Shown: in pieces, positions 620 to 15,297 of the stretch
Numbering within the stretch: the stretch's first letter is position 1
How the letters are laid out: the number at the start of each line of letters is the position of its first letter
DNA from: a virus
Length of the DNA stretch: 20,298 nucleotides
Strand: one strand, 5' to 3'
Virus record (IMG/VR): IMGVR_UViG_3300037104_000086
Coordinates: 1 to 20,298 of that record
Made by a program: the position numbers and the translations under genes
The notes under the pieces: generated by a model
What the model was told of the DNA's origin: nothing
Databases searched by the model: none
The model's input: only the letters and a program-made list of their open reading frames with translations

Positions 620-1686
620 AAGTAAAATCCTCCTTGTGACCAACCTTGTCCACCTTGCTGATTTGGTGTTGAGCTTGAAAAAACCGTCGAGTTGCGTTGA
701 TTGATCTCTTCATTGGCTTGTCTTTCAAGAACAAGTCCCTCTTGTCTTTTAAACCCTTCCATGAGATTCTGTACGCCATCCATATCTTGTCTTCTTCTAA
801 GTATCTCAATAGCAACACCATAGCCCAAATACTGGGCCCACTGATTCAAGATAGGGCTATCAGTGCTTAACATGAACTGTACCGGAGTTAGGTACGTCTC
901 AACCGTGATACGGTGGACAAGTTTCGGGACTGGGCGTACATGGAATTCATTATTCCAGAACAGCAAAGCATAGGGTCTTCCTGGTTGATATTGAGACACC
1001 CAAAGATTAATCGCTGGATAATTCTGCGTAGGAGTGGCGGGAGCAACAGGAAATGTAATCGCAAAAACCCCTGTCACATAGTTAACGGTTCCAATATTTT
1101 GTACATTTAGTAACCCAGGATTGGCTGTGTTTTGGTTGTACATACCTGGAACGGCGGGATTTGTAGTCTGTGCAGGGACTGAAACGGTAGGATTGGGTGT
1201 TTGTAATTGCAGATTGCCTAGCCCATCATCTGCTACTGCAATAGGATTTCCGCTTACATCAGTTCCTCCAAGCGTTACCTCACCAGCAAGGAAAGGCCCA
1301 GGGATAGTGAAAGTAAATGTCGTAGTGACTCCATTTCCTGCAATTGGACTAAATTTAGTAGGCCATTTAGGCCATACATTGAAGAATTCTCGTCTGTCTT
1401 TTAGAAATGATCCCTGTATTCCATCTACATAAACAGGATCTCGAACAGATTGGTCAAAATTAACATCCAATGGATATCTATCCTGGTAAGGAACAGTAAA
1501 AAACTCATACACGCTCCTCATTTGATCTATCTTTATGGCGTAAGGGAAATCCGAGACCATGAATGTATTCAAAGTTGAATCAATATAGGAAGTTTTTAAT
1601 TGGTTTTCTCCTGGAGAAGCGGTCAATTCTCTCACCAATGTTCTAATGAAGGCTACATTTTGACTAGATTGGGTTACTGCGCTCAT
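616..1686 (-). CDS. Phage structural protein, connector/tail-adaptor candidate
   Basis: This 356-aa protein lies in the structural block. The N-terminal 80 residues are helical and charged (LVRELTASPGENQLKTSYID). A central beta-rich insert (about 110-235) is rich in Gly, Thr and Pro and contains G-T-V-N-Y-V-T-G, the same kind of module as in the next gene. The C-terminal third is helical (ILNQWAQYLGYGVAIEILRRR), followed by a Gln/Ser/Gly-rich tail. Its ATG overlaps the TGA of the HNH gene upstream, and its Shine-Dalgarno (AGGGA) lies inside the last HNH codons, so the pair is coupled. Position and architecture fit an adaptor or tail accessory role, which is inference. No enzyme motif is visible. 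Confidence 0.8.
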   Translation of the reverse strand: MSAVTQSSQNVAFIRTLVRELTASPGENQLKTSYIDSTLNTFMVSDFPYAIKIDQMRSVYEFFTVPYQDRYPLDVNFDQSVRDPVYVDGIQGSFLKDRREFFNVWPKWPTKFSPIAGNGVTTTFTFTIPGPFLAGEVTLGGTDVSGNPIAVADDGLGNLQLQTPNPTVSVPAQTTNPAVPGMYNQNTANPGLLNVQNIGTVNYVTGVFAITFPVAPATPTQNYPAINLWVSQYQPGRPYALLFWNNEFHVRPVPKLVHRITVETYLTPVQFMLSTDSPILNQWAQYLGYGVAIEILRRRQDMDGVQNLMEGFKRQEGLVLERQANEEINQRNSTVFSSSTPNQQGGQGWSQGGFYL

Positions 1687-2258
1687 ATTTCTTCCCTAGG
1701 ATTTACATCCAATAACTTATTGTGAATATGGTTGTGGCATATTTTACACACCCACTGAACGTCAAGAGGCTTAGAATAATCCTCATGATGTCCTTGTAAT
1801 TTTACTACTCTCATACACTTTCCACATTCATTTGGTTTCTTTAAAACACCTAATCTAACAGCCCACATAACGGCTTGCGTTGCATAACATTTTTCAGGAT
1901 TATTTCTCCTGTATTTAAGAACGTTAGCAGCTACTTTTTCCTTTCTTTCTCTCGCCCATTTTTTTACCGCTTCATTTTGTTTCTTTCTAGCTTCAGGATT
2001 CCTATTTCTCTCATTTGCACGCTTTCTGATTCTTTCATAATTCTTTAGGTACCATTCTTTAGTCTTAGCTAACGTTTTTTCTCTGTTCTGTTCATAGTAT
2101 TTCTTCCTTGTAGCATTTGATCTTTCAGTGTTCGCCGCATACCATTTCCTTGAATTTTCTCTTATACATGCTTTGCACCACGTGTACAATCTTCCTTTTT
2201 TAGAAGAAGGAAATTCTATCAACTCTTGTTCTATCAAACATTTGGTACATTTTTTCAT
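1683..2258 (-). CDS. Free-standing HNH homing-type endonuclease (copy 1)
   Basis: This 191-aa protein has an N-terminal zinc finger (CTKC near residue 4 and CKAC near 28). A long, very basic helical middle follows, with repeated Tyr/Asn/Arg-rich units (KKYYEQNREK, KEWYLKNYERIRKR). The C-terminal HNH domain has CGKC, then LQGHHEDYSKPLDVQWVC, then CHNHIH. Such proteins are site-specific nucleases that copy their own gene into relatives lacking it. It sits between two structural genes and is paralogous to the gene at 3160-3711. Its stop overlaps the ATG of the next structural gene. The start codon and Shine-Dalgarno lie inside a perfect hairpin (see 2254-2291). Cleavage activity and target are not known from sequence. 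Confidence 0.9.
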   Translation of the reverse strand: MKKCTKCLIEQELIEFPSSKKGRLYTWCKACIRENSRKWYAANTERSNATRKKYYEQNREKTLAKTKEWYLKNYERIRKRANERNRNPEARKKQNEAVKKWARERKEKVAANVLKYRRNNPEKCYATQAVMWAVRLGVLKKPNECGKCMRVVKLQGHHEDYSKPLDVQWVCKICHNHIHNKLLDVNPREEI

Positions 2259-3159: not shown

Positions 3160-3711
3160 TTAAATTTCCTTTATTCCCACGTGGCATTTCTTGCAAAGCC
3201 ATTGTACTTCTAGAGGTTTTGTATAATCTGCGTGATGGGCCTCTATCTTCCTTTCCGATCCGCATATTTGGCATTTCCCCGCTCTTATCATCTTTCCATT
3301 CTTTATGGCTCTTGATACTTTCTGCCAAGCTGAAATCAATTCTTTTCTTTCGTCTCTTAATTTTTGTTGATAATTCCTTGCATATTGTCTAAATTCTGGG
3401 CTTTTTCTTCTCTTATTCTCTCTTTCCGTAATTTCAATCTTATTTTCTTCATAATTTTTTCTTCTTTTAGCAAGAATCTCTTGTCTATTTTCTAGGATAT
3501 GCTTCTTTTGAGAAGATCTGATTGCTTCACGATTTCTCTCCAAATTTTTCCGTTGCATTTCTTTGTAATGCTCTGGATTTTCTTTTCTTCTCTTCTTTCT
3601 AAACTCAGACCTACATTTCTTACAATCAAATCCGTACCCATCTTTCGATGTTTGATCTTTATTGAATTCCAGTAAATCTTTAGTCTGCTCGCATCTGTAA
3701 CATCTTTTCAT
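3160..3711 (-). CDS. Free-standing HNH homing-type endonuclease (copy 2)
   Basis: This 183-aa protein is translated from the ATG at 3711. A longer upstream extension would overlap the end of the 336-aa gene and is unlikely, because the zinc finger typical of the family begins right here (MKRCYRCEQTKD, then CKKC). A basic helical middle with repeated Glu/Asn/Arg units follows. The C-terminal HNH domain has CQIC, then EAHHADYTKPLEVQWLCKKCH. It matches copy 1 in domain order and in the HHxDYxKPLxVQWxC signature, but the helical middles differ widely, so the duplication is not recent. It ends more weakly than copy 1 (CHVGIKEI), so the last His pair is partly missing. A hairpin covers its ribosome site. 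Confidence 0.88.
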   Translation of the reverse strand: MKRCYRCEQTKDLLEFNKDQTSKDGYGFDCKKCRSEFRKKRRKENPEHYKEMQRKNLERNREAIRSSQKKHILENRQEILAKRRKNYEENKIEITERENKRRKSPEFRQYARNYQQKLRDERKELISAWQKVSRAIKNGKMIRAGKCQICGSERKIEAHHADYTKPLEVQWLCKKCHVGIKEI

Positions 3712-3713
3712 AA

Positions 3714-3740
3714 ATAGCCCCCATTCATCATGGAGGCTAT
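3714..3740 (-). promoter_or_regulatory. Hairpin covering the ribosome site of HNH copy 2
   Basis: The arms at 3714-3724 and 3730-3740 form an 11-bp stem with one G-U pair and a 5-nt loop. In the mRNA the 3' arm is ATGGGGGCTAT; its G-run is the only plausible Shine-Dalgarno for the ATG three nt further on. The upstream arm ATAGCCTCCAT contains CCTCC, an anti-Shine-Dalgarno. No T-run follows. The sequence is unrelated to the hairpin of HNH copy 1, but the arrangement is the same. Confidence 0.7.
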
Positions 3741-3763
3741 CATAAGCTAGAATAAACTGTCCA

Positions 3764-4774
3764 CTAACTATTTTGCAACGCTTCCATCTTATAGGCTTGC
3801 CATATGATTTTGTCGTTTGCCGCTCCTCCTGGGGAAGCCGCGCCACCGGAAATTACCATAAAAGGCGTAAACTGCCCTGTTCTGAAAGGTGCCTTATCAA
3901 AATTATACCCTGTATATAACCCAGTAGTAGCATTCTGTTGTGTACTTGAACCAGCAGGAGCTACAGTCGCAAACAAAGCTGATGTTGGCGAAGAAGCTGA
4001 TGTTGGGAAAGCAAACGTTGTGAATGCTGTACTGTCAATATTTACAGTTAAGGTATACGCAGCAGAAGACACAGCAGTGATTGTCCCTGTCAATTGATTC
4101 ATCTCGATCATTCCAAAAGATGATGGAATACTGAAGTGAATCTTCATCCCTACTGCATAGTAAGGAGTAGGATCAACAGAACAAGTTACTACTGCACTTG
4201 AAGCTTTAGAAATCCCAGTGACATAAAGGAACTGAGGATCTACCGCTAAGTTTGAAGACACTCTTCTGGTTGAACCAGCAGTAGCCGCGTTAGCGAATCC
4301 TGAGGAGTTCAATCCAATCAGTGTATATCCAGAACCAGATACGCTAGAAATTTGGAAGTTCATTCCGCCGATCTGAGCTTGTCCAGTCGTTCCGTAGAAC
4401 TGAAGGATATCTCCATTGTTGTAAGTATTAGTCTGAGTTACAACTGCATTTGAAGCCTGACTAATAGCAGTAATAGGGCTAGCGTTAGCTGCTTCTACAA
4501 CAGGAGATGAAGTCACATAAGTGAATCCATTAGATGCTGAAGAAGTAGAGAAAAGATCGATTAAGATCGCGCTACTTCCTGCTTTTCTCCAACGAAGACC
4601 ATCATTAGCTGCTGACACTCCATTAAACCATTCACCTGCTACGCACACAGAACCTGTAGCATTCATTTGCGTATAGTTCACAGTTTTAAAGTAATCAACT
4701 GAGCTTGGTAGCGGGATCTTTACGTTAACCCCAGTTGAGGTGAAAGATCCTTGTGTAATCAATGTGAAAGCCAT
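3764..4774 (-). CDS. Capsid-adjacent virion protein, beta-rich, FCCH-like C-terminus
   Basis: This 336-aa protein is rich in Ser, Thr, Ala and Gly and directly follows the capsid gene after an 11-nt gap. It has a strong Shine-Dalgarno (AAGGAG, 7 nt before ATG). The N-terminal part reads as a beta sandwich (ITQGSFTSTGVNVKIPLPSS). The middle contains GDILQFYGTTGQAQIGGMNF, then a parallel module at about 205-265 (HFSIPSSFGMIEMNQLTG, then LTVNIDSTAF). The two modules share the G-x-x-x-Q/E-M/I-N-x-L/F logic of the E1 FCCH-like domain and are probably internal repeats. Placement fits a head decoration or surface protein, which is inference. The 127-aa gene downstream repeats the C-terminal module. 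Confidence 0.8.
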   Translation of the reverse strand: MAFTLITQGSFTSTGVNVKIPLPSSVDYFKTVNYTQMNATGSVCVAGEWFNGVSAANDGLRWRKAGSSAILIDLFSTSSASNGFTYVTSSPVVEAANASPITAISQASNAVVTQTNTYNNGDILQFYGTTGQAQIGGMNFQISSVSGSGYTLIGLNSSGFANAATAGSTRRVSSNLAVDPQFLYVTGISKASSAVVTCSVDPTPYYAVGMKIHFSIPSSFGMIEMNQLTGTITAVSSAAYTLTVNIDSTAFTTFAFPTSASSPTSALFATVAPAGSSTQQNATTGLYTGYNFDKAPFRTGQFTPFMVISGGAASPGGAANDKIIWQAYKMEALQNS

Positions 4775-13545: not shown

Positions 13546-15297
13546 TCAAAACATTAGTTGATGATCAAAATCAAGTCTTTTCTTAGCTATCTCACAATAA
13601 TCTGGTTGTTTTTCTATACCTATTGCAGAAATATTGAGATGTTTTGCTGCAACAATAGTTGATCCTGATCCGGCGAATGGGTCTAGGATTAGGGAGTTTG
13701 TTGGAGGGGATATAAGTGTTAGTAAGTATCTCATTAGTGCGAGAGGTTTGACTGTTGGATGGGAATTCTTCGCGATCTTCTTGAATCGATCCCTTTCTCT
13801 TCCATCATCATCAATGGGCATCGCTCCGCCACATCCTGTTTGACATTCAATACCCGGCAATTCATCAAGCCCCTCATTCCTTTCGCGACTCGAGGCTTTA
13901 GCGCAATAAAAGAAACGGGAGGCTCCTCCAGTATCTGTAAAACCACCCCTAAAATGCTTTGCACTTTTTTCGTGGCCTTCTGGATGTTGTGATAAAGGAT
14001 TGCTAAAAGCTCCTCCTTTACACCCTTTACTAGTCTTTAATGGCTGAGGAGTATTGCTATAAATGCTTTTACTCACCCCACTCTGCTCATCCAACATCGC
14101 CCCCGCTTCCTCATCCAAGATTACATTGGCTGGCCAGCGGCCTTTCGTTTCCATCCGCTCATTATAAATTTCCCCTGAATGATTTCCTTCCGAACCCCTA
14201 CTGATACATCCTTGTGATCCTTGACTACCATAATTACATATCTTCCTTGGATCGGAAGCAATCCGACACCCATCAATATTAATCCCAGCCTGCCCCCACT
14301 TCTGAGCATTTTTCTTGAACGTGCCATCGCAAGGCTTCATGGCCATAATGATTGGTTCGTAGTTAGGGGATAAATTTCCAGTGTCTTTTGAAATGATCGG
14401 AGATAGACAGGACTTCAAGGTTCTCAATTCTGTTATCAGTCTTAATGCCATTCTTGTGGTGAACCTGCTCATTTCTCGTAAGACATCTTCCAAGGTGTTT
14501 CTCCACAACAAGGCGATGTTCTCCAATGTATCGCTTGTTGTGACGGACATATAAATATCCTGTATGTTTGCAAATATAATTTCCGCCCCTCCATGCAGGA
14601 TTAGATTCTCCGATAGATTTTCCGCGCATCCATTCGTGCTTACAGTTTCTTGAACAGAAGACGAATTCGCCGAGCTTGAGACGCGCTCTAGTGCGGTAAT
14701 ATTCCTTGCCACATAATTTGCATCGGCAAGTTTTTCCCAAGCGTACATTTTGACATTTTCTTGAACAGTAAACGGAAGCGCCTTGTTTAATAACGCTAGA
14801 GAATCTTTCAAATTCACTTCCGCATCGTTTACATTTGCATTTGATCTTTGGCATACATTCCTATGAATTTCATGGGTTAAATCATAAGATATTATAGCGA
14901 TAAGATGATTTATTTCATAGGGCTTTTGTCCGACCATAATCGGCTCATGAGCTGGCTTGAGAGCTGTTCCATATCCTTCGCATCCGAACTTATTGTGACT
15001 TTTAGGAAATCCCGATCCGTAGATCCACATAATGCAATCACGGATCTCAAACCCAGAATCTTCGATTGCACAAGTGAGGCGATGAAACGTTCTAGTTCCC
15101 CCCATTGCAAGTAAATGACCACCTGGCTTGGTGATTCTGAGGCATTCTTTCCAATATTCGATTCCTGGTACGGCATGATCCCATCCTTTCCCCATGAATG
15201 ATAACCCATAAGGAGGATCTGTAACAACGCCTGAGAAATGATTGTCAGGAAAGGTTTTCATGACATCTAGACAATCGCCTTGAATGATTTGCCACAT
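13546..15297 (-). CDS. Beta-class DNA (N4/N6) methyltransferase with a large in-frame insertion
   Basis: This 583-aa AdoMet-dependent enzyme methylates amino groups of adenine or cytosine, probably to protect phage DNA from host restriction. Motif IV (DPPYG, 27-31) lies near the N-terminus and the AdoMet motif (DPFAGSGSTIVAAKH) near the C-terminus, giving beta-class order. THPTVKP-like HPTVKPLALMRYL precedes it. Residues 127-309 look foreign: they interrupt the usual run ALKPAxEPI..AMKPxDGTF..N. The flanks show two imperfect copies, LKPAHEPIMVGQKP (113-126) and LSPNYEPIIMAMKP (309-322). The inserted DNA carries an HNH gene in another frame (14363-14854), yet the methyltransferase frame stays open. 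Whether the enzyme still works is unknown. No Shine-Dalgarno is obvious; the start fits the family (IIQGDCLDVMK). Confidence 0.88.
   Translation of the reverse strand: MWQIIQGDCLDVMKTFPDNHFSGVVTDPPYGLSFMGKGWDHAVPGIEYWKECLRITKPGGHLLAMGGTRTFHRLTCAIEDSGFEIRDCIMWIYGSGFPKSHNKFGCEGYGTALKPAHEPIMVGQKPYEINHLIAIISYDLTHEIHRNVCQRSNANVNDAEVNLKDSLALLNKALPFTVQENVKMYAWEKLADANYVARNITALERVSSSANSSSVQETVSTNGCAENLSENLILHGGAEIIFANIQDIYMSVTTSDTLENIALLWRNTLEDVLREMSRFTTRMALRLITELRTLKSCLSPIISKDTGNLSPNYEPIIMAMKPCDGTFKKNAQKWGQAGINIDGCRIASDPRKICNYGSQGSQGCISRGSEGNHSGEIYNERMETKGRWPANVILDEEAGAMLDEQSGVSKSIYSNTPQPLKTSKGCKGGAFSNPLSQHPEGHEKSAKHFRGGFTDTGGASRFFYCAKASSRERNEGLDELPGIECQTGCGGAMPIDDDGRERDRFKKIAKNSHPTVKPLALMRYLLTLISPPTNSLILDPFAGSGSTIVAAKHLNISAIGIEKQPDYCEIAKKRLDFDHQLMF
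14363..14854 (-). CDS. HNH homing-type endonuclease nested in the methyltransferase gene
   Basis: This 163-aa ORF has the same orientation as the methyltransferase but a different frame: each of its codons begins one nt before a methyltransferase codon. Two zinc-finger-like pairs lie at the start (CKRCGSEF with YCSRKC; CKLCGKEY with FCSRNC). A NUMOD-like GESNPAWRGG follows, then the HNH core: GEHRLVVEKHLGR, EQVHHKNGIKTDNRIENLEV. AGGA lies 4 nt before the ATG, so internal initiation is plausible. Its HNH-core codons read in the methyltransferase frame give RFTTRMALRLITELRTLKSC, without a stop. Its nuclease class differs from the two other HNH genes here. Likely a homing enzyme targeting uninterrupted methyltransferase genes (inference). 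Confidence 0.85.
   Translation of the reverse strand: MPKIKCKCKRCGSEFERFSSVIKQGASVYCSRKCQNVRLGKTCRCKLCGKEYYRTRARLKLGEFVFCSRNCKHEWMRGKSIGESNPAWRGGNYICKHTGYLYVRHNKRYIGEHRLVVEKHLGRCLTRNEQVHHKNGIKTDNRIENLEVLSISDHFKRHWKFIP

Follow-up and report, generated by a model that had tools for sequence, protein, structure and literature searches.

An HNH endonuclease gene hidden in the second frame of an in-frame insert in a phage DNA methyltransferase

Homing genes normally rely on an intron or an intein to occupy a gene without breaking it, and the T4 mobE/gene 60 cassette is a case in which a coding gene tolerates a nuclease-linked insert with no RNA splicing. Among the closest known systems to the locus studied here are ShiLan and, cited alongside it, Applejack (PMC12613952). 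The ShiLan insert was published in 2023 (PMC9957025) and followed up in 2025, when the ShiLan domain of mycobacteriophage methylases, located at the same position as the present insert, was described as having no stops in the host frame, a third-frame HNH gene, and a start that resembles the downstream flank over 11 residues (PMC11855218). The same study reported nine in-frame relatives of the domain, all of them in phage methylases, identified neither an intron nor an intein, noted no ribosome binding site for the HNH gene, and proposed leaderless initiation (PMC11855218).

The locus analysed here lies in viral DNA of 20,298 nucleotides (IMG/VR record IMGVR_UViG_3300037104_000086, positions 1 to 20,298), the whole of which is referred to as the window. 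The comparisons indicate that its inserted element is a distant, new member of the published ShiLan kind. Both inserts occupy the motif VIII site, have the HNH gene in the +2 relative frame, leave the host frame without stops, and have a 5′ end resembling the downstream flank. They differ in that ShiLan has a C-terminal zinc finger, whereas the window HNH protein lacks one but has a second finger before the HNH domain, and in the start signals, which are ATG with AGGA in the window and GTG with GGAGG in ShiLan. The original prediction had considered a homing gene that keeps its host frame open to be an unusual strategy. The same site and frame had already been published for ShiLan in 2025 (PMC11855218) and the insert in 2023 (PMC9957025), so the arrangement is less unusual than supposed, and the suggestion that other phage methyltransferases contain similar insertions proved correct. 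Beyond the published work, we add the breadth of the family, a test of the open frame, the motif VIII carried by the element, and a ribosome binding site inside the insert; the duplication of the motif and the binding site had been overlooked in the original prediction.

The nested genes and the start of the hidden frame

The host methyltransferase (MTase) matched Pfam N6_N4_Mtase (3.5e-32), with motif matches flanking the insert on both sides, and was assigned to PHROG 67. It keeps the catalytic DPPY (residues 27-30) and DPFAGSG close to the C-terminus. The ORF coordinates and Pfam matches (Table 1) confirmed the predicted nesting of the HNH ORF, which lies entirely within the MTase ORF on the same strand and fills most of the insert, and the two peptides cited for the two frames are indeed encoded by identical bases. 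The insert was correctly predicted to be in frame, while its length, given as about 550 nt, was measured as 588 nt against L098, the closest insert-free relative found. Elsewhere in the window, two ORFs with paired Cys/His residues, at 1683-2258 (-) and 3160-3846 (-) beside structural genes, look by eye like free-standing HNH-type genes; Pfam did not match HNH in either.

Table 1. Features of the methyltransferase locus, in window positions
Feature	Position	Strand	Basis or remark
Beta-class N6/N4 DNA methyltransferase, 583 aa including the insert	13546..15297	-	ORF and Pfam
Gene for a 163-aa HNH endonuclease, starting with ATG and read in the +2 frame of the MTase	14363..14854	-	ORF, Pfam HNH_3
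AGGA resembling a Shine-Dalgarno sequence, 4 nt upstream of the HNH ATG	14859..14862	-	
Inserted element, 588 nt (196 codons), in motif VIII between TALK and PNYEPIIMAMKP	14368..14955	-	Comparison with insert-free L098
Copy 1 of motif VIII, element-borne, in frame (PAHEPIMVGQKP)	14920..14955	-	
Copy 2, the host's original motif VIII (PNYEPIIMAMKP), downstream of the element	14332..14367	-	76% DNA identity to L098

The protein of the second frame matched Pfam HNH_3 (1.1e-12) and consists of two Cys4 zinc-finger-like modules followed by the HNH_3 domain (EHR...EQVHHKNGIKTDNRIENL). All zinc-binding and HNH catalytic residues are kept, and the predicted structure had a mean pLDDT of 86.6. The fold match with the best probability was I-HmuI (1U3E), with a Foldseek probability of 0.98 and an rmsd of 3.2 over 70 columns but an E value of 0.26, and a search of solved structures by sequence with the HNH profile found nothing. 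An HNH_3-type catalytic domain is common to the window protein and the I-HmuI-like nucleases of phage group I introns, but the window has no surrounding intron, the zinc-finger modules and the gene arrangement differ, and the fold match is weak at that E value.

The two closest relatives, L001 and L002, have HNH proteins 69 and 66% identical to that of the window, at the same site and with both frames open; the identity to the ShiLan HNH protein was 43%. In the free tree, the window joined L001, L002, and L017-L020 in a deep branch that stood apart from the others with weak support. A single clade of the HNH genes inserted in motif VIII (site A) was not rejected (p-AU 0.72), and an independent origin of the window branch at this site is not supported. 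A patchy distribution arising by transfer between diverged hosts is clear for the mycobacteriophages, whereas for the window the comparison consists only of the insert-free L098 and the 66-69% identical HNH relatives. No near-identical copy of the window element was found in a different host gene.

A Shine-Dalgarno core was located 3-11 nt before the HNH start in 35 of 51 hidden genes; among 2665 start-like codons taken from these loci the proportion was 8.4% (p 4e-26). Besides the AGGA of the window, the signals included GAGGT in L002, AGGA in L001, GGAGG in cyanophage Cr-LKS3, and GGAGGACGA-GTG in ShiLan. The GTG preceded by GGAGG in ShiLan (L005, position 1989) aligns with the start of all relatives. 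Because this downstream GTG is the one preceded by a Shine-Dalgarno sequence, the ShiLan HNH protein probably starts there (about 169 residues) and not at the published upstream GTG (195 aa). It is likely that the hidden gene is translated from an internal ribosome binding site, a likely answer to the question of its translation that went unrecognised in the 2025 paper (PMC11855218).

Two copies of motif VIII

At the insertion site, L098 has an uninterrupted TAIKPAYEPIIMAMKPCDGTF. Where it reads ...GYGTAIKPAYEPIIMAMKPCDGTF..., the window reads ...GYGTALK, then the 588-nt insert, and then PNYEPIIMAMKPCDGTF..., with a 3′ boundary that is precise only to within a few codons. At its start the insert has PAHEPIMVGQKPY, which is another version of the motif found after it. 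Over 45 nt of window DNA, copy 2 was 76% identical to L098, whereas copy 1 and copy 2 were only 47% identical to each other. The mean DNA identity between the two motif copies was about 52%, although the protein motif is common to both.

The 68 empty sites have both halves of the motif, TALKPAxEPIxxARK. Compared with these, the conservation of the two copies was complementary. In copy 1, the K, P, E, and K were kept in 27 of 27 cases and the R was mostly lost, while copy 2 kept the A, R, and K in 85, 85, and 93% of cases, the first K in only 11%, and the E in 70%. From this complementarity we infer that the first half of the motif comes from the element. Among mycobacteriophages whose MTases have diverged, a block that is 97-100% identical lies between flanks that are 63-80% identical, starting at CTGAAA/CCAAGC before copy 1 and stopping just before copy 2. 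Since the near-identical block includes copy 1, this copy travels with the element. Across site A, the alignments indicate that each element carries its own recoded copy of motif VIII, and the recoding may guard against both the nuclease and recombinational loss.

A structure model of the inserted MTase, built from 20 inserted relatives, was poor overall (pLDDT 56). In this model the strand was occupied by copy 2 and not by copy 1, whose pLDDT was <50, so that a simple replacement of the strand by copy 1 is not supported; the structural role of copy 1 is not decided by the model because of its poor quality. Read in the MTase frame, the window insert was mostly predicted with low confidence, and tblastn of its in-frame peptide against GenBank phages gave no match.

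Breadth of the family and the open host frame

Viral contigs and bacterial genomes were scanned with HNH and MTase profiles, and GenBank phage records were added. Altogether, 52 hidden HNH genes were found in MTases of viral contigs, named phages, and bacterial genomes, forming 33 clusters below 70% identity. Site A, in motif VIII, is used in the window, ShiLan, cyanophage Cr-LKS3, and others; site B is a variable stretch after SGFPKS (L024, L025, L029, L054, L096, L338, L350) and has no motif copy; site C lies just before HPTxKP (L178, L182, L318, L332). A copy that serves the host protein would fit this pattern, in which the conserved site A has one and the variable site B does not. Most related MTases lack the site-A element, the 68 empty sites being recognisable as such.

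Several variants were seen alongside these genes. Single MTase ORFs with two hidden HNH genes, at sites A and C and both in the +2 frame, occur in L178 (1082-1529 and 2099-2417) and L182 (2500-2947 and 3649-4021). Intein-like inserts in terminases or MTases have an HNH-like nuclease out of the frame of the splicing domain (L008 1435-4194, L074 1551-2022, L021 1503-1968, L360 2455-2752); L008 is Gordonia phage Clown, whose host frame matched Pfam Intein_splicing at 2.8e-14. An unrelated phage protein has an HNH_3 gene hidden in the opposite frame near its C-terminus (L192 2500-2878, L193 2500-2824, L255 2002-2401), an arrangement also present in a Sinirhodobacter genome. Two more opposite-frame genes (L217 2494-2884, L273 1859-2216) are found in MTases, where they separate the HPTQKP-type motif region from DPFMGSG/DPFAGAG and are flanked in the host frame by zinc-ribbon-like cysteines.

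The openness of the host frame was tested by permutation, in which synonymous codons were shuffled inside the HNH gene while the protein and codon usage were kept. For the 52 hidden genes, all in the usual frame, the host frame contained 0 stops in 7785 codons, compared with 75 expected, while the unused third frame contained 543 (564 expected). The same frame in free-standing relatives contained 792 stops in 16756 codons (744 expected) and was stop-free in 1 of 136. Where the hidden gene used the opposite relative frame (8 cases), it was the opposite frame that was open (0 stops, 44 expected), and the first frame had 53 stops (45 expected). In the window alone, the MTase frame was stop-free in 0.8% of permutations, or in 2.8% over a shorter stretch. 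All 36 of the site-A inserts measured, with lengths of 531-738 nt, were multiples of 3. The original prediction had named a frame full of stops in close relatives as a finding that would speak against it; the host frame was open in the MTase-embedded relatives, and stops were met only in free-standing ones.

There is some circularity in this stop-freeness, because an open host ORF around the gene is what identifies it as hidden, and the comparison was therefore extended to MTase-flanked split cases and to the opposite-frame cases above. In a non-circular count of HNH genes between two MTase halves, the host frame was open in 52 and split in 3 cases. The N-terminal piece of the split MTases L189, L343, and L021 ends soon after a complete motif copy (...TALKPAHEIIVCGMKPTA, ...TAIKPSWEPFLVGRKPIKII, and ...TSLKPAFEPVCVGYKRV, each followed by a stop), after which comes the HNH gene; L343 has a downstream C-terminal MTase piece beginning VITVARKPLSGTV. 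No known intron was found in these three. Because the MTase is split at the site in them, an open frame is not strictly required.

The open host frame, together with insert lengths that are all multiples of 3, argues that the insert is translated within the MTase and not removed from the RNA; as far as the sequences can tell, the frame is kept readable across the family, which argues against RNA splicing. At equal protein identity, hidden pairs retained more third positions than free pairs. The host-frame amino-acid sequence of the insert was scarcely more conserved than the unused frame. We therefore claim no selected peptide, and the small constraint on the host frame beyond the absence of stops is consistent with a tolerated loop.

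Explanations of the arrangement

In our view the segment is probably a hidden homing element of the ShiLan type that works without splicing, its HNH gene being read in the +2 frame while the insert stays readable for the host. The HNH gene has an internal ribosome binding site of its own and lies inside an insert that is stop-free and in register with the MTase. The recoded motif VIII at the element start leaves the N-terminal half of the host still followed by KPxxEP...KP, and the extra loop after the carried motif is probably poorly ordered. The nuclease would be expected to cut motif VIII in co-infecting phages whose alleles lack the insert; the element would spread when the break is repaired from the occupied copy, and the MTase would be made with the loop inside, so that splicing would be unnecessary. 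That the empty motif VIII is cleaved, that the window copy homes, that the 583-aa MTase is active, and that both proteins are expressed are predictions from these sequences; for cutting of the empty allele and copying into it, the near-identical mycobacteriophage blocks give only indirect evidence.

Phage group I introns often carry HNH genes of the I-HmuI type, which favours a self-splicing or otherwise spliced RNA intron that carries the HNH gene and in which the open host frame is incidental. The resemblance of the 5′ end of the insert to the downstream flank has also been taken as an intron-like sign (PMC11855218). However, Rfam searches matched no intron, whether in the window (gathering score), in the insert (E<=10), or in seven related loci (E<=1), no ribozyme core was recognisable even at such permissive thresholds, and only about 100 nt of the insert lie outside the HNH ORF. 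A spliced insert needs neither the frame nor the absence of stops, yet both hold in 33 diverged clusters, and copy 1 would be untranslated if spliced, yet its E and K are invariant while the codons vary. An intron is thus quite improbable, and an intein or intein-like protein-splicing insert is very improbable. Nuclease-bearing inteins are likewise in-frame inserts at conserved motifs that leave the host gene readable, and real inteins with hidden HNH genes exist (L008, L021, L074, L360), but the window nuclease lies in another frame and a protein-splicing domain is missing. The window MTase had no intein or Hint match in Pfam at E<=1, unlike the positive control L008 (2.8e-14), and the insert starts with Pro and ends with Leu-Ser, without Cys/Ser first or His-Asn last. 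The earlier reading of a second-frame HNH gene that leaves the host frame open and is neither intron nor intein is thereby supported, and the relatives strengthen it.

We regard it as improbable that the insert is now a useful MTase domain, for example an enlarged recognition region, with the HNH frame as a relic. The insert does adjoin the target-recognition region, and helices are predicted in the host frame. Against this, the HNH frame keeps every zinc-binding and HNH residue and has a fold predicted at pLDDT 86.6, the host frame is little conserved beyond the absence of stops, and most related MTases do without the site-A element (the 68 empty sites). A homing nuclease likewise accompanies the bypass cassette of T4, and two similar sequences flank the window insert, as would suit ribosomal bypassing of the kind seen in phage T4 gene 60, in which the insert would be skipped between the motif copies. 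This is extremely improbable, since bypassing is not needed where the frame is open and in register, 588 nt far exceeds the known 50 nt, and the DNA identity between the motif copies averages only 52%. Compared with the T4 mobE/gene 60 cassette, the window uses an open frame and not a bypass, has the nuclease inside the insert, and is far longer.

The hidden homing element of the window might belong to a broad class of splicing-free homing elements that invade conserved coding motifs, a view for and against which we see about equal grounds. Such elements would keep the host frame stop-free by means of an out-of-frame nuclease, and a recoded motif copy would restore the motif, presumably destroying the target and preventing recombinational loss; the class may have several origins (MTase sites A, B, and C, inteins, and the unrelated phage protein). 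If so, the carried motif copy would be a device analogous to that of integrases restoring the end of a tRNA gene.

For annotation, calling only the longest ORF misses hidden HNH genes, and the corresponding in-frame inserts resemble meaningless extra domains. We propose that the start of the insert resembles the downstream sequence because it is a carried copy of the interrupted motif. The wide sample turns an anecdotal mycobacteriophage case into a testable rule, and the hidden-HNH family appears to need neither an intron nor an intein.
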